22,585 nt of DNA from a virus. Both the position numbers and the translations under genes were made by a program. This document shows positions 2,331 through 21,914 of this stretch, piece by piece. The stretch covers positions 1 to 22,585 of the IMG/VR virus record IMGVR_UViG_3300006805_002151. One strand, 5' to 3'. The notes beneath the pieces are model-generated. The model had not been told where the DNA came from, made no database searches, and was given only the letters and a program-made list of their open reading frames with translations. Position 1 is the stretch's first letter, and every line of letters begins with the position of its first letter.

Positions 2331-3854
2331 ATGTCTAATAAAGTAATTTTTAATACAGAAGGCCTTAAAAGAGGAATGGATATTGCTCATAAAGCAGTTG
2401 CCCCAACTTTAAGTAGTTCAGGAAAAAACACCGCCTATAACGATTATAATAGCCCTACAATTACTAATGACGGTATCTCAATTCTTAACAGAATCAATCT
2501 TGAAGACAATGAAGAACAGATGGGTGTTGATTTTATCAAGCAAGCATCACAGAAAACTGATGATGAAGCTAATGATGGTACAACTACTGCTGTCATTCTT
2601 TCTCATGCAATGGTTGAAGGTGGTCTTGAGGCAGTAAAGAGTGGAATTAACCCAATGAGACTACGAAAAGAGATTAACGAGGCGGTTGATAAAGTTATTT
2701 CTGAGATTACAGCCACTCCTATTACAAATGATGAGGAACTTTTCAATATTGCTAATATTTCAGTAGAAAATCCAGAGATTGCACAAATTATTGTTGACTC
2801 TGTTACAAAGGTAGGTGTTTTTGGCGAAGTCTTGGTTGAAGAATCAAATGGTGTATCTATCGAGAAGGAAGAAATCGAAGGTTTTAGTTTCGATAAGGGC
2901 TATATCTCTCCGTATCTAGTTACCGATCCTGAAAAGATGGAGTGTATGCTAGAAAATACTCTTGTACTTGTAACAGATAAGACTTTGAATCTAAACAAAG
3001 ATGCTGTTGGTCTTCTTGATGCTGTAATGAAGCAGGGGCACAAACAATTATTTGTTGTGGCTGAAAATGTACAAGGTGAACTCTTGTCTACTTTAATTGT
3101 AAACCGAATGAAGGGTAGTTTTTATCCTGTAATTGTCCAGAGACCTTTTAATAAGGATATGCTTGAGGATATTGCCGCTCTAACTGGTGCTACAGTACTT
3201 ACATCTGAAAAAGGAATAGGGGAACTCAAGGCTGAACACTTCTCAATGCTCGGTGTCGCAAAGAAAGTGATTGTTACTAAGGACAGAACTACCATCATTG
3301 GTGGCTTAGATGAAAAGAGTCGTGTAGATGAGAGAGTTTCAGCAATTCAGAATGAATTGAAGACCGCTGAGCACTATGAGAAGGCAAAGCTAAAGGAGAG
3401 ACTAGCAAAACTGACTGGTGGTATTGTCATTATTAAGGTTGGTGCTCCTGTTGAAGCTGATATGAAGTACCTAAAGAAAAAGATTGATGACTCAGTAGGT
3501 GCTACACGTGCAGCTATGGAAGAAGGGGTAGTAGTTGGAGGTGGTAAGACACTCTACGAGCTTTCATTAGTAGAACCAAGTACTGCTGGAGAAAAGGTAG
3601 TACGAGATGCTTGTGCTATGCCTATTAAGACAATCATTAAGAACTCTGGATATGATGAAAGTGTAATCTTGCCTCAAATTACTGGTGATAAGATTTTTAA
3701 TTCATCTACAGGTGAAGTTGAAGTGAACAATAAGATTATTGATCCAAAGAAAGTAGAAAGATGTGCTCTAAAGAACGCAGCAAGCCTCGCTGGTATCTTT
3801 ATCACCATGAATGCAGTGATAATTGATACTCCAAAAAAAGTTGATATGGTATAA
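2331..3854 (+). CDS. groEL: Phage-encoded GroEL-type chaperonin
   Basis: 507 residues against about 548 in E. coli GroEL; collinear over the whole length. GroELs form ATP-driven rings that fold proteins in a central cavity. Conserved landmarks: ITNDG (catalytic Asp47, equivalent to Asp52), NDGTTT (Asp82, equivalent to Asp87), YISPY (191-195) and LLDAV/LLSTLIVN in the apical domain, which carry the hydrophobic substrate/GroES-contact positions, IDDSVGATRAAMEEGVVVGGG (start at 386; equivalent to the Asp398 region), and IIDPKKV (469-475). Differences: the near-invariant LGPKGR phosphate loop is replaced by LSSSGKN (27-33), and there is no GGM tail. No GroES is encoded nearby. It sits between the large terminase and portal genes, so a role in folding capsid or other virion proteins is likely but inferred. 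The stop codon lies inside a promoter-like TGGTATAAT. The start follows a 20-base A/T-only gap. Confidence 0.95.
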   Translation: MSNKVIFNTEGLKRGMDIAHKAVAPTLSSSGKNTAYNDYNSPTITNDGISILNRINLEDNEEQMGVDFIKQASQKTDDEANDGTTTAVILSHAMVEGGLEAVKSGINPMRLRKEINEAVDKVISEITATPITNDEELFNIANISVENPEIAQIIVDSVTKVGVFGEVLVEESNGVSIEKEEIEGFSFDKGYISPYLVTDPEKMECMLENTLVLVTDKTLNLNKDAVGLLDAVMKQGHKQLFVVAENVQGELLSTLIVNRMKGSFYPVIVQRPFNKDMLEDIAALTGATVLTSEKGIGELKAEHFSMLGVAKKVIVTKDRTTIIGGLDEKSRVDERVSAIQNELKTAEHYEKAKLKERLAKLTGGIVIIKVGAPVEADMKYLKKKIDDSVGATRAAMEEGVVVGGGKTLYELSLVEPSTAGEKVVRDACAMPIKTIIKNSGYDESVILPQITGDKIFNSSTGEVEVNNKIIDPKKVERCALKNAASLAGIFITMNAVIIDTPKKVDMV

Positions 3855-4135: not shown

Positions 4136-6117
4136 AAAAAGACAAAGACGGAAAAGTAAAAATAGAAGATGTTAGAGGAGTAATATCTAATACAGAGCTT
4201 GAAGAAGTGGGTCAAACCTATGCAAACTTTTACAGATACAGAGGTTTTAGATCTGGGCTTGTTAAACAATATCAGAACAACTCATTTGAGGATGCTTTGA
4301 CTATTAGTCGAGAGCTATTTTGGAACTCTATGACAACTAAGTCGGAAGATTTACAAAATCTACAGCTTGACTTCTCTATTCCTTTTGCAAGAAAGGAGGT
4401 TCTTGAGTTTTTGGGTAGACTTACATCTCTTAACGTAAAACCTCGCATCTCTGGCGATGGACTCGACTCACTTGGAATCAAAGCATTGCAGTCTTTATAT
4501 AACCACTGGAGATTCAAGTCTAACGGAAAGGTGGAAAGATTCTGGGAACTCTTATACGGTATTGTAAACGGTACTGTGTGCTCGTATGTTGGGTATAACA
4601 ATACAAAACTACAGCGTAGATACCTAAAAAGCTATGATGGTGAAACAGGTGCTTTTAAAATCGAGAGAAAGGAACAAACATATTGGGATGATGTATGGAA
4701 AGAGATTGTTCCTATTGAAGATATATACTTACCAAAGATATTTGAACGAAATTTCCAAAAACAAGGGAAGATGATTTGGCGTACCCAGATGGAAGCAAGT
4801 GATTTCCATGCTGAGTTTGACAATAAGTATGAAATGGCTAAATACGCAATGCCTGGGAATATGATTTCAGGTGATTCTCTTTATCTTGAGCTTCTAGGAG
4901 GATCTGTAAGCTCATCTTACACAAAGATTGAAATTTTGAGAGAATATGACTGGATTGAAGATAAATACAAAATGATAGCAAATGGTATCTTGCTTAACCC
5001 ATTGGGTAAGGGAAGAAATGTTGATGTGGCCCCTATGCCATTTGACCATAAAATGGGCCCTTTCACTTGGGGTATTATGTCTCCTCTTGATGAGAAATTA
5101 TCATATGGACTTATGATGCCGTTTCTTATTAAAGATCCACATAAGATTTCAAATACAGCCATTACTATGATGGTGGAGCGAGAACTTAGAGCAATCGACC
5201 CTCCTATTCTTACATCTGACATTGAATCTCCAGAACTTATCTTCGGGCAGCATAAAGTTATCCCAGTAAATGATGTGAATGCATACAAGGAGATGAATAT
5301 CTCTGAGCCTTCTTCTCAGTTCTTCACAATGCTTAATTCATTGCAAGGACAGATGTCTTCTATCTCTCAAGGTGGGGACTCCCAAGTGGTTCCGTCAAGA
5401 CAGCCTAAGTCTGCACGTGAAGCATCTCAAAATGCTCAGATAAAACAGCAATCAATGGCGAACTCTATGGTGATGTACTACGATATTATCCGCCAGGAGG
5501 TTCTGTTGGTCATCAAAACAGCTCTACAATTCTACACAATAGAGAAAGCAAAAAATGGAGATAAGAGAGTTATAAAATCAATCACATCTCAAGATATGCC
5601 TCTTACACAAGGAGGTATTGGTAATGTGAAGCTACGATTTGTAAAAGAAAAGGCTGATGCTATGGATTTATTCATAGAAGCTATCAAAGAATCAGTAATT
5701 AATGGAAAGCCTACAGAGATTATTGAAGTCCCACTTGAGTTTATTCAAGACCTAGAGTGTTATATCTCAGACATTGAGCTTGAGGCTGACGAAGGAAGTG
5801 AACTTGAGATGGCAAACTTCGTAGAAAACGTGATCAACCCAATGCTTAATGTATATGTACCTGCTGGAATTGCAGATATGGGTAAGACATTCTTAAGGCA
5901 TGTAGAAAAGATGGGTGAGAATCCTGCTGATTTCGCTTCTGAGCAAGCCATCAGTCAAATGAACGGCCAAGGACAGAAACAACAGCAAGCACAGCCAGGT
6001 GCAGTGCAAGCAGGAGGTGGACAGCAAGGAGTAGGCCCAGCCCAGGGTAATATGCTTCAAAGTTTACAGGGTCAGAAGTTCGGAGGCCAGAATAATAGAG
6101 GTTTACCAGTTCAATAA
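4132..6117 (+). CDS. Portal protein
   Basis: 661 residues, near the size of P22-type portals. The portal is a dodecameric ring at one head vertex through which DNA enters and leaves. Supporting features: position downstream of the large terminase and just before scaffold and capsid genes; a long mixed alpha/beta N-terminal half; a segment around 427-441 (SAREASQNAQIKQQS) followed by a helix-rich stretch, the pattern seen in the stem/crown region of podovirus portals; and a Gln/Gly-rich flexible tail from about 613 to 661. No catalytic motif is expected. The ATG overlaps the preceding TGA. The Gln/Gly tail could contact DNA or internal proteins, which is inference only. Confidence 0.85.
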   Translation: MKKDKDGKVKIEDVRGVISNTELEEVGQTYANFYRYRGFRSGLVKQYQNNSFEDALTISRELFWNSMTTKSEDLQNLQLDFSIPFARKEVLEFLGRLTSLNVKPRISGDGLDSLGIKALQSLYNHWRFKSNGKVERFWELLYGIVNGTVCSYVGYNNTKLQRRYLKSYDGETGAFKIERKEQTYWDDVWKEIVPIEDIYLPKIFERNFQKQGKMIWRTQMEASDFHAEFDNKYEMAKYAMPGNMISGDSLYLELLGGSVSSSYTKIEILREYDWIEDKYKMIANGILLNPLGKGRNVDVAPMPFDHKMGPFTWGIMSPLDEKLSYGLMMPFLIKDPHKISNTAITMMVERELRAIDPPILTSDIESPELIFGQHKVIPVNDVNAYKEMNISEPSSQFFTMLNSLQGQMSSISQGGDSQVVPSRQPKSAREASQNAQIKQQSMANSMVMYYDIIRQEVLLVIKTALQFYTIEKAKNGDKRVIKSITSQDMPLTQGGIGNVKLRFVKEKADAMDLFIEAIKESVINGKPTEIIEVPLEFIQDLECYISDIELEADEGSELEMANFVENVINPMLNVYVPAGIADMGKTFLRHVEKMGENPADFASEQAISQMNGQGQKQQQAQPGAVQAGGGQQGVGPAQGNMLQSLQGQKFGGQNNRGLPVQ

Positions 6118-6541: not shown

Positions 6542-6603
6542 ACAGCAAACAGGGTCTTCGCTTGGGATTGTAAAAAATCTAAACGGAAGGTTTAAAAATA
6601 AAA

Positions 6604-6632
6604 GGGCGTAACAGTTAATGTCGCCAATTAAC
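6604..6632 (+). promoter_or_regulatory. Leader hairpin, possible pseudoknot, before the scaffold gene
   Basis: GTTAAT (6614-6619) pairs perfectly with ATTAAC (6627-6632) around a 7-base loop. Within that loop CGCC (6622-6625) is complementary to GGCG (6605-6608), so an H-type pseudoknot can be drawn, although the 1-base loop at 6626 may be too short. The structure ends 8 bases before the ATG at 6641 and is followed by an A-rich stretch. Function is unknown; translational control is a guess. Confidence 0.35.
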
Positions 6633-6640
6633 AAAAACAC

Positions 6641-7255
6641 ATGGAACATAAAGAAATTATAGAGAAGGAAATTAATGGAGAAGATGTTACTGAGCTTAAA
6701 AAGGACTTCACAGAGGAACAAACTCACGAATACAATTTAGGATTCAGAAAAGCATCAAGTGAAGCTAAGACGAAAGAATTAGAAGAACTAAAAGCTCTAA
6801 GATTAGAGAAAAAGCGAGTAGCCGATAAAACAAGTGATAACGATACAGTTGTAAAACAGTTTCGTGAAGAACAGGTTGGAAAGGCAAAAGAAAAGTTTTT
6901 CTCTGATGCACGATTTCCTCTTACTGCTGAGCAAAAGACAGAGTTTGAAGAAAATTTCAAACGTCTTGATACAGGAAAAGTTGACTCAGATTTGATTTTT
7001 AAAGACTTGACTAAGGTATATGCCTATATGAATGGTGATACCCTTCTATCTTCTCAAGAAAAATTGAAAGATATGGAGAAACAAGCTCAAGAGTTTAATT
7101 CTCAAGGAGCATTTGGAACAGGGGGGAACCCAGGTTCACCAGATGAATCTAAATTCTCTGAATCAGCAAAGCAACTGTATAAAGCATGGCAGAAAGCTGG
7201 TTATGGCTCTACATACACACTTGAGAGAGCTCAGCGTGTAGTAGATCGTAGCTAA
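6641..7255 (+). CDS. Probable capsid scaffolding protein
   Basis: 204 residues, highly charged, rich in Glu and Lys and predicted to be almost all helical, with coiled-coil-like stretches at about 5-70 and 130-155. A Gly/Pro-rich linker (FGTGGNPGSPDES, near 158-170) precedes a small C-terminal helical segment. This architecture, plus the slot between portal and capsid genes, is typical of internal scaffolding proteins, which nucleate capsid assembly through a basic C-terminal helix and leave or are degraded before DNA fills the head. No protease motif is visible. It is expressed from the extended -10 promoter about 100 bases upstream. The start has no Shine-Dalgarno. Confidence 0.7.
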   Translation: MEHKEIIEKEINGEDVTELKKDFTEEQTHEYNLGFRKASSEAKTKELEELKALRLEKKRVADKTSDNDTVVKQFREEQVGKAKEKFFSDARFPLTAEQKTEFEENFKRLDTGKVDSDLIFKDLTKVYAYMNGDTLLSSQEKLKDMEKQAQEFNSQGAFGTGGNPGSPDESKFSESAKQLYKAWQKAGYGSTYTLERAQRVVDRS

Positions 7256-7809: not shown

Positions 7810-8916
7810 ATGGAACAATTCTATCAGGGTTCATTGGATGTATTCTTAACAAAAGTTCGAGCTGATTTCGACACAGTAGAAGACCAGGCTGAAAAGGCCA
7901 TCTCTGCACTCGAAGTCAATGGACTCTTGAAGTCAGAAAACATGCCAAATGCCCTATTCACAGAGGTATCAAATATTGACTCAGACGGAGACCGAGCAGT
8001 ATGGCGTAACATTTCAGTAACAGGTATTAAACAACTTGGAACTCGAAAGGCTGGAGGTAACTTCCCAGAAGCGACCTTTATCCGAGGTTATGAAACTGCT
8101 GTTTACGATCCAGATACACAAGATGCATCTGAAATCGTAGTACCAGAGGAACGACAGGATAAGGAAGGAAAGATGTACAAGTCTGTGCTCAACCGAGCTA
8201 CAAAACTTATCATCGAAGGACGACGAAAGAATATTGGAGATCCGTTTGACGTGTTCAACCATGCTTTTACAGCTCCAACTTCTTACCCAGTTCACTTCAA
8301 TGCTAAAGGAAACCTTGGTCTTGACGGTAACTTGACAGCTCTCGGAGAGAGACTTATTTCTATCGCTCATGCACGAGCTGATGGAGGTACAACTATCTCT
8401 AACGCTGTTCAGAACTCAGGAAACGCCGCTCCTTTCAATGTAACTTACTATGAAGCTGCACTCGAACAGGGTCAGACTTTTAAGGATGATGTTGGAAAGC
8501 CTATGCCAATGTTCGGAGGTTCAATCACAGTAGTGGTTCCACCAGCAAACGGACTTGTTGCAACAGCTAAGGAGATTGTAGATTCAGAATGGGCTCCAGG
8601 TACAGCAAATAACGAAATTAACGCCTTTAAGGGTACGTTTAATAACATTATTTCTTCACCTTACCTTTCTGCTTCTTACAACACATCTTCTATCACTGAC
8701 ACACGAAAGTGGTTCTTGGTTGATACATCAACTCAGGATCCAGAAGTAGGTACAGGTCTAGTACGAGTGTGCTTTGTACCAACAAACTCACGAGTAGGAC
8801 GAGATCAGCGAACACAGGCGGTAATGTTCCAGTACAAGCAGAGTTACAACTATGTTTGGACAGACTTCCGAAATGTTCTCGGTTCTAAGGGTGATAACGC
8901 AAGTTACACTGGCTAA
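7810..8916 (+). CDS. Probable major capsid protein (HK97-like fold)
   Basis: 368 residues, typical for an HK97-type capsid subunit without a long delta domain. Evidence is position after scaffold and decoration genes; a helical, charged N-terminus (VRADFDTVEDQAEKAISALE); a long E-loop-like region followed by a spine-helix region (near 180-210); and a late beta/alpha section. Codon use is strikingly different from the packaging genes: 15 of 17 arginines are CGA by hand count, consistent with selection for high expression. No Cys-rich or catalytic motif is seen. No prohead protease gene lies nearby. The start is preceded by AAACCATC with no Shine-Dalgarno. Confidence 0.8.
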   Translation: MEQFYQGSLDVFLTKVRADFDTVEDQAEKAISALEVNGLLKSENMPNALFTEVSNIDSDGDRAVWRNISVTGIKQLGTRKAGGNFPEATFIRGYETAVYDPDTQDASEIVVPEERQDKEGKMYKSVLNRATKLIIEGRRKNIGDPFDVFNHAFTAPTSYPVHFNAKGNLGLDGNLTALGERLISIAHARADGGTTISNAVQNSGNAAPFNVTYYEAALEQGQTFKDDVGKPMPMFGGSITVVVPPANGLVATAKEIVDSEWAPGTANNEINAFKGTFNNIISSPYLSASYNTSSITDTRKWFLVDTSTQDPEVGTGLVRVCFVPTNSRVGRDQRTQAVMFQYKQSYNYVWTDFRNVLGSKGDNASYTG

Positions 8917-8936
8917 TATCTGATTAATTAAAAATC

Positions 8937-8967
8937 TAACCACAACAACAAATGTTGCCTGTGGTTA
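8937..8967 (+). promoter_or_regulatory. Competing upstream hairpin after the capsid gene
   Basis: TAACCACA (8937-8944) is exactly complementary to TGTGGTTA (8960-8967), and inside it CAAC (8946-8949) pairs with GTTG (8954-8957) around an AAAT loop. The 3' arm is also part of the 5' arm of the longer hairpin at 8953-9002, so the two folds exclude one another. This is the layout of an attenuator-like or otherwise switching RNA. Confidence 0.45.
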
Positions 8968-9002
8968 TGAGGGATTCGATGCCTTCTTAACCATAGGTAA
9001 CA
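8953..9002 (+). promoter_or_regulatory. Long RNA hairpin between capsid and exported-protein genes
   Basis: Bases 8953-8973 pair with 8982-9002 in 20 of 21 positions (three G-U pairs, one T-T mismatch at 8968/8987) around the 8-base loop ATTCGATG. It is followed by an A run, not a T run, so it is not a + strand intrinsic terminator. It ends 14 bases before the ATG at 9017. Likely roles are message processing, 3'-end protection of capsid mRNA or control of the downstream start. Confidence 0.65.
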
Positions 9003-9016
9003 AAAAAAACATAAAC

Positions 9017-15005: not shown

Positions 15006-15350
15006 ATGGATTCTAAAGACATCAAGTCAATAGTAGATCAACTTGCCTCTCATATAGAGGAGCAAGTAAAAACTACCATATATGAACATGGTGTCCTTAA
15101 AGACAAGGAAGTCAGCGGACTGCATAGAGAGATTAATGCAAAGTTAGGTGCACTGACCTCAAACATGGAGGTTGTAAGTAAGACAGTATCAAACCATGAT
15201 GAGGTTATACAGGAACTCAGACAGTTATACAAAACCGCAGGGACTATTAAAAAGTTCTTCATAACAATAATCGTAGGTGTTCCAAGTCTTGCTGCGTTTG
15301 TAGCAGGAGTTGCATATATCTATCATGTAATTTTCCCACTCAATGATTAA
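15006..15350 (+). CDS. XhlA-like membrane protein, lysis module
   Basis: 114 residues. A helical, charged N-terminal part with coiled-coil spacing (about 20-80) is followed by a single membrane span (FITIIVGVPSLAAFVAGVAYIY, about 87-108). This coiled coil plus C-terminal anchor layout resembles the XhlA proteins that sit beside holin and amidase genes in PBSX-like lysis cassettes. Its stop overlaps the amidase start by 8 bases, which couples the two. It may anchor or time the lysis proteins. Confidence 0.65.
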   Translation: MDSKDIKSIVDQLASHIEEQVKTTIYEHGVLKDKEVSGLHREINAKLGALTSNMEVVSKTVSNHDEVIQELRQLYKTAGTIKKFFITIIVGVPSLAAFVAGVAYIYHVIFPLND

Positions 15351-15936
15351 AAATATAATTGTCCATCATTCATCTGCACCAGAATCTGCACCATATATAG
15401 ACGGAAGAAACTATACTCTTGCCATGTGTAATTCAGATCATAAAGTTCGTTTTAACATGAAATCAAGTTTAGGATGGTACATTGGCTATCATTATTTTAT
15501 TGACTCTTTTGGAAAAGTAACACAAACAAGAATAGATACAGAGGAAGGTGCTCACTGTAAAGGGTATAACAATACTGCCTATGACAAAATATACCACCCA
15601 GAGACACTTTCTGTTGGTATATGCCTAGTTGGTAACTTCGATAGCGTACTCCCCACAGAAGCCCAAATTTCAAGCCTGACAGGTCTTTTAAAACAACTTG
15701 TTGATAAATATGGGATAGATTTAAAAAATATTGTTCCACATAGAGCACATGCAGTTAAAACATGTTATGGAAATAAGCTAAAAGAATCATGGGCTAGAGA
15801 TTTGTTTGTTCAAAAGTCTGTCCAGACTATTCCAACTCCAGTCGTGACAGCTGAAACATGGCAAGATAAATTCCATAAGATAATGCTCGCCTCTGGCTTT
15901 ATTGTGAAAGATGGTAAATATGTCTGGAATAAATAA
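15343..15936 (+). CDS. N-acetylmuramoyl-L-alanine amidase (endolysin)
   Basis: 197 residues of the Amidase_2/PGRP family, to which T7 lysozyme belongs; it cuts the bond between muramic acid and the first L-alanine of peptidoglycan. Zinc ligands expected from the family are present: His8 in IIVHHS, His133 in PHRAHAVKTC and Cys141, with Lys139 matching the T7 catalytic lysine. GYHYFID (49-55), GAHCKGYN (70-76) and VGICLVGNF (91-99) fit the fold. After about 155 comes a Thr/Pro/Val linker and a 40-residue C-terminal domain that may bind the wall but is not recognised. There is no signal peptide, so release depends on a holin. The start lies within the previous gene, 8 bases before its stop. Confidence 0.9.
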   Translation: MIKNIIVHHSSAPESAPYIDGRNYTLAMCNSDHKVRFNMKSSLGWYIGYHYFIDSFGKVTQTRIDTEEGAHCKGYNNTAYDKIYHPETLSVGICLVGNFDSVLPTEAQISSLTGLLKQLVDKYGIDLKNIVPHRAHAVKTCYGNKLKESWARDLFVQKSVQTIPTPVVTAETWQDKFHKIMLASGFIVKDGKYVWNK

Positions 15937-15957
15937 ATTCTATACCTGGGGATAACT

Positions 15958-15973
15958 ATAATAAGTTTATTAT
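15958..15973 (+). repeat. AT-rich palindrome ATAATAA-GT-TTATTAT
   Basis: A perfect 7+7-base inverted repeat with a 2-base centre sits 22 bases after the amidase stop and overlaps a bare TATAAT (15957-15962) that lacks TG and a -35. It could be an operator over a weak promoter, a DNA-bending site or a weak hairpin. No T tract follows, so it is not a good terminator. Confidence 0.4.
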
Positions 15974-15991
15974 GTTATTCTTTGTGTATAA

Positions 15992-16073
15992 GAGCCTTTT
16001 AAGAACTTAAAGAGACAAAAACTACTTCATATATACTCTCTTTTAAGGTATGGTGCAAATCCATAGAGGCTCA
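15992..16073 (+). ncRNA. tRNA-like or three-way-junction leader RNA
   Basis: An acceptor-like 7-bp stem, GAGCCTT (15992-15998) with GAGGCTC (16066-16072), encloses a 5-bp/7-base-loop arm TATGG-TGCAAAT-CCATA (16049-16065) that abuts it exactly as a T-arm does; the loop differs from TTCRANY only at the second base. A second arm, CTTAAAGAGA with TCTCTTTTAAG (16006-16015/16037-16047, one bulge), has a 21-base loop. A 4-bp arm TTAA-GAAC-TTAA (15999-16010) could replace part of it, giving a cloverleaf with an oversized anticodon-like loop. There is no GG in a D loop, no 7-base anticodon loop and no CCA, so it is not a normal tRNA. It ends 1 base before the ATG at 16075, which favours a cis-regulatory leader. 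Confidence 0.5.
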
Positions 16074-16074
16074 C

Positions 16075-16245
16075 ATGATACTTAAAATAAGGTCTTATTT
16101 TAAAAGATTATTATGCAATCACGATTTTGTGAAAGATGATGTATTGCCTGAAAAGAGAAGATACCATATGTGGGGAGTAGAAATAATTACGCCAGTAGTA
16201 TGTACTAAGTGTAGACATACTTCACTAGAATCTAATGTGGTATAA
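16075..16245 (+). CDS. 56-residue Cys/His protein, possible zinc finger
   Basis: An open frame from ATG 16075 to TAA 16243-16245 codes for a compact basic protein, MILKIRSYFKRLLCNHDF to CTKCRHTSLESNVV. It has CNH near 14-16 and CxxC (CTKC) near 42-45, the spacing of the small CxH...CxxC zinc-ribbon-like proteins common in phages. It directly follows the leader RNA at 15992-16073 and its first codons lie over an AT hairpin (16082-16103). Its stop is inside the TGTGGTATAAT promoter of the next gene. Function is unknown; a DNA- or RNA-binding or structural zinc role is guessed. Confidence 0.65.
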   Translation: MILKIRSYFKRLLCNHDFVKDDVLPEKRRYHMWGVEIITPVVCTKCRHTSLESNVV

Positions 16246-20234: not shown

Positions 20235-21914
20235 ATGTCAAACGTCGGAGCAAACTTTTTTCGAGCATATCTAGCATCAGAACTCACAGAAGGTGGAAGT
20301 GAGACTGAAATTTTCTTAGATAGAATCACCACACTTACTGGTGAAACAATAACAACCGCAAACTTCTCTACTTTTGGGAGAGGAACTATTACTCTTGCCC
20401 CTACGGTTGCTGATAGCATTGAATGTGCTTCTTTTACAGGGGTTGATGCAACTGCTGTAAGTCTAACAGGAGCTATTAGAGGATTATCAGCTTTGAGTGA
20501 TTCTGTGGTTACAGCAAATAAAAAGTATCATCCTGTGGGAACTCAGGTGATTATTGCCTTTGGAGTACACAATCTCAATGATTTAACTACATATATTGCA
20601 AGTCTTGTCACAGGCTCTATAGGTACTGCAACAGATTTAGTAGGAGGTTCTACAAAGATAACAGAAGGGTTAGGTTCTCTGCCTAGAGCGATGGCTGCTC
20701 TTGTATCTGAACAGACAAGTCCAAATATGACTTTGAAAGTCAACCCTTTTGCAATTGCCGTATTAGATAGTGTCATTTCATACACAGGTGGTAATACAGC
20801 TACTCTTACTGCTCCAGTTACAAATCCACGTATCGACCTAGTTGTTTACAGCACAACTGGATCAGCGATTGCTGTACGAGCTGGATCAGAAGGAGTAAGC
20901 CCATCAGAGCCAACTCCTACAACTGGAGACATTGTCCTTTGTTCTATCTACCATAGAGTAGGTGAAACAACTCTAAGAGAAAGAGATATTAGTCCTAATA
21001 CTCAAGGGTATATTAAGAGATGGTATACACCTGTTGTATATAGAACTGATATAGCCACTCAGACATATGTTGGAAATAGAATCAAGTTTGGAGGTACTGG
21101 TACAGACGGAGCATTAACACTTACATCTGGAACAACAACACTTGATCTAGGAAGTGCTGCTTATTTTGAAAAAAACTATACAAGTATTTCTATTACAGGA
21201 ACAGGTAAACTTGCTTTCAGTAATCCAAATACAAATGGAACTATTATTGTCATTAAATCTCAAGGTGCAGTAACACTTACATCTAGTACTTCACCTTGTA
21301 TTGATGCATCTGGTATGGGTTCAGCAGCAGGGGCAGCAGCTAGTGGTACTGTTACTGCAACATCTGCATCAACAGCAAGAACATCTCAAATGTTCAATTC
21401 TATTCCTGCAAATGTAAGTAATGCAGGAGGAGCTGCACCAATATCTACAATTACAAATGTAAAAGCATTACTATTAGCACCTGGGTGCGGTGGAGGCGGT
21501 GGAGGACAGTATACTGGAGCAACTGATGGTGCTGGAGGTGGAGGAGGTGCATCTATAATTAATAACGGAACAAGTGGAGGTGCATCTGGAGGAAATACAG
21601 GAGGTACTGCATCTGCCGCTGGCGGTAGAGGAGGAGGTGCACTTTATATTGAATGTGCAGGTACTTATACCAATACATCTGCTACTGTGTCAGTTGCAGG
21701 TGTTGCAGGATCAAACTCCGCATCAAACGGTTCTGGAGCTGGAGGAGGAGGAGCAGGTGGAACGCTCTACGTCCTTTATAATACATTAGGTTCTGATACA
21801 GGTACTTATACTGTAACTGGTGGAGCTGGAGGAACAAATGCTAATGGACAGCACAATGGTGGAGCTGGAGCTACTGGCTATTCATCTATAGGACTTAATA
21901 CACAATTCGCTTAA
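20235..21914 (+). CDS. Tail adhesin with glycine-rich C-terminal domain
   Basis: 559 residues. The N-terminal part (about 1-110) is a mixed beta region with TGAIRGLSAL, close to the virion-attachment motif of many phage fibres (SGVTRGL-like). A central beta region spans about 160-300. A Ser/Thr/Val-rich shaft leads to a C-terminal domain (about 416-555) with runs GCGGGGGG, GAGGGGGA, GGRGGGA, GAGGGGAGG and GGAGGT. Such glycine arrays form a polyglycine-II sandwich in the receptor-binding adhesins of T-even-like phages (gp38 type), so this is the leading candidate for host recognition. It follows the hub gene behind its own promoter. Confidence 0.75.
   Translation: MSNVGANFFRAYLASELTEGGSETEIFLDRITTLTGETITTANFSTFGRGTITLAPTVADSIECASFTGVDATAVSLTGAIRGLSALSDSVVTANKKYHPVGTQVIIAFGVHNLNDLTTYIASLVTGSIGTATDLVGGSTKITEGLGSLPRAMAALVSEQTSPNMTLKVNPFAIAVLDSVISYTGGNTATLTAPVTNPRIDLVVYSTTGSAIAVRAGSEGVSPSEPTPTTGDIVLCSIYHRVGETTLRERDISPNTQGYIKRWYTPVVYRTDIATQTYVGNRIKFGGTGTDGALTLTSGTTTLDLGSAAYFEKNYTSISITGTGKLAFSNPNTNGTIIVIKSQGAVTLTSSTSPCIDASGMGSAAGAAASGTVTATSASTARTSQMFNSIPANVSNAGGAAPISTITNVKALLLAPGCGGGGGGQYTGATDGAGGGGGASIINNGTSGGASGGNTGGTASAAGGRGGGALYIECAGTYTNTSATVSVAGVAGSNSASNGSGAGGGGAGGTLYVLYNTLGSDTGTYTVTGGAGGTNANGQHNGGAGATGYSSIGLNTQFA

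Follow-up and report, generated by a model that had tools for sequence, protein, structure and literature searches.

A predicted three-way-junction RNA fold abutting the start codon of a small gene in an uncultured tailed phage, with a possible role as a 5' leader

The RNA encoded at positions 15992-16073 of the window (the whole 22,585-base IMG/VR contig of a tailed phage that was analysed here) is predicted to fold into a three-way junction. This predicted fold is truly encoded at that place and probably makes up the structured start of the messenger RNA of a 56-residue gene. We tentatively read this element as a cis-acting 5' leader that may impede translation initiation at the ATG at 16075. 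The phage encodes a terminase, a GroEL-like chaperonin, tail fibres with an S74 chaperone domain and an amidase. The chaperonin gene (window 2331-3854) adjoins the terminase gene and is kept in many, not all, relatives. No Shine-Dalgarno (SD) motif is evident in the sequences upstream of the phage's genes, and from this and the fibre repeats we suspect that the host belongs to the Patescibacteria (CPR). Non-coding gaps total only 541 nt up to position 21914. The features of the locus are as follows.

15343-15936: amidase (lysin) gene, directly 5' of the gap
15937-16074, plus strand: non-coding gap between the amidase gene and the 56-residue ORF; only three gaps, this one included, reach 100 nt
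15941-15990, plus strand: long A+T-rich hairpin immediately 5' of the element, z -3.38
15957-15962, plus strand: TATAAT, candidate -10 box, inside the hairpin 15941-15990; such boxes are enriched in gaps
15968-15975, plus strand: possible anti-start strand, pairing with 16073-16080 including the ATG in a modelled transcript starting near the TATAAT
15992-15998, plus strand: 5' strand of the acceptor-like stem, GAGCCTT, in the predicted fold
16006-16047, plus strand: predicted bulged 10-bp arm with a 21-nt loop (16016-16036)
16049-16065, plus strand: predicted T-arm-like hairpin TATGG-TGCAAAT-CCATA, 5 bp and a 7-nt loop
16066-16072, plus strand: GAGGCTC, the 3' half of the acceptor-like stem; A and C come next, then the start codon
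16075-16245, plus strand: 56-residue ORF, zinc-ribbon-like (CNH...CTKC), downstream of the folded element

The three-way junction is the minimum free energy fold of the element at -19.4 kcal/mol (z -2.66), and 4 of 200 shuffled sequences were equally stable. Its acceptor-like stem, GAGCCTT/GAGGCTC, comprises 7 bp including one G-U pair and ends 2 nt before the ATG. Seven unpaired bases lie between the 5' strand of this stem and the bulged arm, whose strands CTTAAAGAGA/TCTCT(T)TTAAG close the 21-nt loop, and a single base separates the bulged arm (ending at 16047) from the T-arm-like hairpin (starting at 16049). The stems persisted in four longer transcript contexts, with acceptor pair probabilities of 0.83-1.0, and the whole acceptor was kept in 108 of the 130 suboptimal structures within 3 kcal. 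The pairing claimed in an earlier note on this DNA, an acceptor-like stem, an arm with a TGCAAAT loop and a third, bulged arm with a 21-base loop, was thus confirmed, as was the position of the element one base before the start codon (last base 16073, then C, then the ATG at 16075). The same note took the element to be the entire space before the gene; however, the gap spans 15937-16074, and the separate hairpin at 15941-15990 precedes the element and takes up most of the remaining gap.

Taken as a whole, the 138-nt gap folds at -33.8 kcal/mol (z -3.10) and is more stable than 199 of 200 shuffles; its minus strand gave a z of -1.5. On the plus strand, 5 of the 21 TATAAT sequences touch the 541 nt of gaps against about 0.5 expected, an enrichment of about tenfold, and the boxes in gaps are likely to be phage promoters. 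The five lie at window positions 3850, 6536, 7258, 15957 and 20207 (plus strand), some of them just 16-28 nt 5' of the next ATG. For the TATAAT at 15957-15962 no good -35 box was called. If transcription begins there, the leader would be about 105 nt long, and in modelled transcripts starting near the box the start codon was paired with a probability of 0.72-0.78.

On the leader reading, the three-way junction would be a structured 5' leader on the mRNA of the 56-residue gene and the genes behind it. The helix ending 2 nt before the AUG would keep the start region closed to ribosomes, an additional helix could cover the AUG itself when transcription starts locally, and only remodelling, binding or cutting of the RNA would open it. 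Because no SD is evident before the genes, control would act on how accessible the start region itself is. Sequestration of an SD sequence was dropped as a mechanism since the sequences upstream of the phage's genes show none.

We gathered 25 related viral contigs by iterated searches, with terminase identities of about 37 to 54%; the nearest relative, G020, has a capsid-like protein that is 65% identical. Neither the 56-residue gene nor the amidase gene was found in any of the 25. A DNA search of the locus in the first 19 relatives returned two trivial matches of 17-19 nt only, and a tBLASTn search of the locus in the related contigs gave no homologous locus. No DNA similarity to the locus was found in 50,697 phage records, no close relatives of the lysin or of the 56-residue protein were found in IMG/VR, and scans of genome contigs for host or prophage copies gave nothing. 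The 56-residue ORF has a weak match (E 6.4e-4) to phrog_3036, a family of unknown function. The exact pattern of the T arm plus the acceptor 3' strand occurs in 17 contigs; by eye, the flanks have no matching stems and look unrelated, and these candidates were rejected. In G001 and G020, different genes occupy the interval equivalent to the lysis region, so the lysis/moron region looks variable among the relatives. The absence of the element from these relatives is neutral on function, neither for nor against.

The same phage carries another leader, at window 6550-6640 (plus strand), which in our view is the better supported RNA of the two. It is a tandem loop-strand pseudoknot located before an ORF at 6641-7255 that sits between the portal-like and capsid-like genes and is scaffold-like by position only; PHROGs gave no name for any of these three genes. 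In hairpin 1, positions 3-6 of a 7-nt loop pair with a downstream strand a; strand b follows strand a and has as its partner positions 3-6 of the loop in hairpin 2; this second hairpin ends about 8-10 nt before the ATG. In the window, hairpin 1 is CAGG-GTCTTCG-CTTG with GGAAG, and strand b is GGGCG with hairpin 2 GTTAAT-GTCGCCA-ATTAAC. A scan found this leader in the window and in 11 related contigs (G001, G005, G006, G008, G010, G011, G019, G022, G023, G024 and G025), G022, G023 and G025 being near-identical. Inspection showed the leader in G020 as well, where hairpin 2 contains a single mismatch; in G003 and G009 the first half is retained and the second pairing is weak. Loop 1 and strand a covary (CTTC/GAAG, CGCC/GGCG, TGTC/GACA and CGTC/GACG, with CTCC/GGAG in G009), as do loop 2 and strand b (CGCC/GGCG, CGAC/GTCG and CTGC/GCAG). 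Once the linkers had been taken out of 11 distinct sequences, 97.7% of the pairing cells were paired versus 65% in shuffles, and the covariation score was 0.914 versus 0.228 in shuffles (reached in 0 of 500) and no more than 0.18 when the structures were slid; these values are inflated because the pairing guided the manual excision of the segments. A less biased count found both halves at 11 of the 4,953 ATGs examined across 26 contigs, 10 of the 11 before this same gene. A gene-blind scan gave 22 clusters, and 12 of these lie at the leader locus with near-identical contigs counted separately; shuffled sequence gave 5-10. The leader was unmatched in Rfam and is apparently undescribed, in the sense that it is neither in Rfam nor met in a shallow literature search. 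A very stable hairpin (window 8917-9016, plus strand, z -7.05) without a T run directly follows the capsid-like gene, and strong hairpins of differing sequence follow this gene in many relatives too.

The element resembles the tandem-pseudoknot leader in being a putative leader of about 100 nt behind a TATAAT box, whose last hairpin has a 5-6-bp stem and a 7-nt loop and sits near -26 relative to the start codon. However, neither the loop-strand pairings nor the G-N-Y-N-N-C pattern of the loops is present in it. A scan for such pairings at the start 16075 was empty, and membership of the element in this family was rejected.

The main rival to the leader reading is chance folding, in which an A+T-rich intergenic stretch pairs by accident and was spotted through its T-arm resemblance; we regard this as doubtful, yet the most serious of the alternatives. 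Of the windows simulated with an order-2 Markov model, 19% had an acceptor combined with some 5-bp/7-nt arm at equal stem strength, the z of the element is only -2.66, and 673 of 9002 82-mers of the window (about 7%) fold at least as stably. The relatives have no match, and distances from the motif to a start codon among them are not clearly enriched (4 within 6 nt versus 2.2 expected). Against chance stand the 199 of 200 shuffles that the whole gap outdoes and the T-loop signature: when T54, C56, purine 57 and A58 were included, the combination appeared in 0 of 150 simulations, which makes the tRNA resemblance suggestive only, because the signature was picked after the sequence had been seen. 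Next comes an unlikely reading as a transcript-end or processing element, in which the hairpin at 15941-15990 and the junction would shield the lysin mRNA at its 3' end or act as a mark for RNase cleavage between two transcription units. Two tandem structures do occupy the gap after the amidase stop, and the capsid-like gene, here and in many relatives, is likewise followed by long hairpins, but neither structure in the gap is followed by a T run, and a terminator scan found no intrinsic terminator (a G+C-rich hairpin with a T run) there.

Ranked after these, and likewise unlikely, is a tRNA-derived or tRNA-mimicking RNA, either the decayed remnant of a phage tRNA or a tRNA-like site for cleavage by RNase P/RNase Z, at which a 3' cut would leave an mRNA starting about one base before the AUG. 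Like a tRNA (RF00005), the element has a 7-bp acceptor-like stem directly adjoining a 5-bp T-like arm, a 7-nt loop of the form T-x-C-A-A (the T-loop-like GGTGCAAATCC) and an unpaired A at position 73 after the acceptor. The arm carries G53-C61, T54, C56, A57 and A58; position 55 is G and not T, as it is also in the genuine tRNA-Met of G020. Unlike a tRNA, however, it has no D arm and no 7-nt anticodon loop: minimum free energy and suboptimal folds give a single bulged 10-bp arm with a 21-nt loop in their place. The tRNA covariance model left the window unmatched up to E=10 while scoring the G020 tRNA at 56.5 bits, and ARAGORN at default thresholds, with and without introns, called no tRNA in the element; with lowered thresholds it made dozens to hundreds of calls per window and was uninformative. 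The mascRNA-menRNA model (RF01684) was also unmatched up to E=10. With that family the element shares an acceptor plus T arm and a reduced third arm, whereas mascRNA/menRNA is a product of animal lncRNAs and differs in arm and loop lengths. Rfam scans at gathering scores and in relaxed mode gave chance-level matches only and placed the element in no curated family.

Three tRNA-like pieces were observed in relatives. G020 (L081) carries at 29721-29793 on the minus strand the genuine phage tRNA-Met(CAT), whose T-loop, TGCAAAT, is identical to that of the window element. G012 (L050) has at 8150-8191 (minus) a mascRNA-like minihelix (RF01684, 21.8 bits, below the cut-off of 42.5) that ends 1 nt before the start codon of a terminase-small-subunit-like gene. 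In G005 (L057), minus 5081-5224, a 7-bp stem AGAGACG/CGTCTCT closes on the consensus T arm CGGGGTTCGACTCCCCG and leaves 113 nt in between; the piece lies 5' of the pseudoknot leader. The shared T-loop and the placement of the G012 minihelix speak for a tRNA-derived origin, but the minihelix and the window element are not homologous, and the count of acceptor plus T-arm combinations in the first 19 relatives and the window (3 versus 0.6 expected) is a hint and no proof. A bolder form of this idea, which we consider very unlikely, is that a tRNA-shaped element before the start codon is cut by host tRNA-maturing enzymes, exposing the AUG at or beside the 5' end of the mRNA; this would be 'tRNA punctuation' in a bacterial virus, and the G012 minihelix would be a second, independent case. 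Since no known RNA matched and no relative shows the fold, the tRNA likeness may be a coincidence, and it is most likely convergent or accidental. The tRNA mimic suggested earlier is unsupported by the covariance models, by ARAGORN and by the arm architecture, and we consider it unlikely.

The leader reading is favoured by a stable and robust fold, by non-coding DNA retained despite just 541 nt of gaps, by the TATAAT in the gap, by the lack of an obvious SD and by the comparative support for a leader of similar length in the same phage. Against it stand z values of -2.7 to -3.1, which are moderate, the share of about 7% of 82-mers that are as stable, and the lack of a homologue with the fold. 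Overall, as far as the folding models go, the original observation was mostly right. Its suggestion of a cis-regulatory RNA is plausible, in that the gap holds a TATAAT, the fold abuts the start codon and the leader in another gap is conserved.

The autoregulatory leader pseudoknot of T4 gene 32 is described as a folded mRNA leader able to govern translation of the gene that follows (PMC535899, PMC3014915). The element would likewise be a folded phage mRNA leader before a gene; the two have no sequence relation, and the element is a predicted three-way junction without a demonstrated pseudoknot or protein ligand. If real, the element would control a late-gene unit through a folded mRNA leader in poorly known, uncultured phages that lack an evident SD. 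With the tandem-pseudoknot leader that precedes the capsid-gene block, translational control becomes directly testable in these phages.
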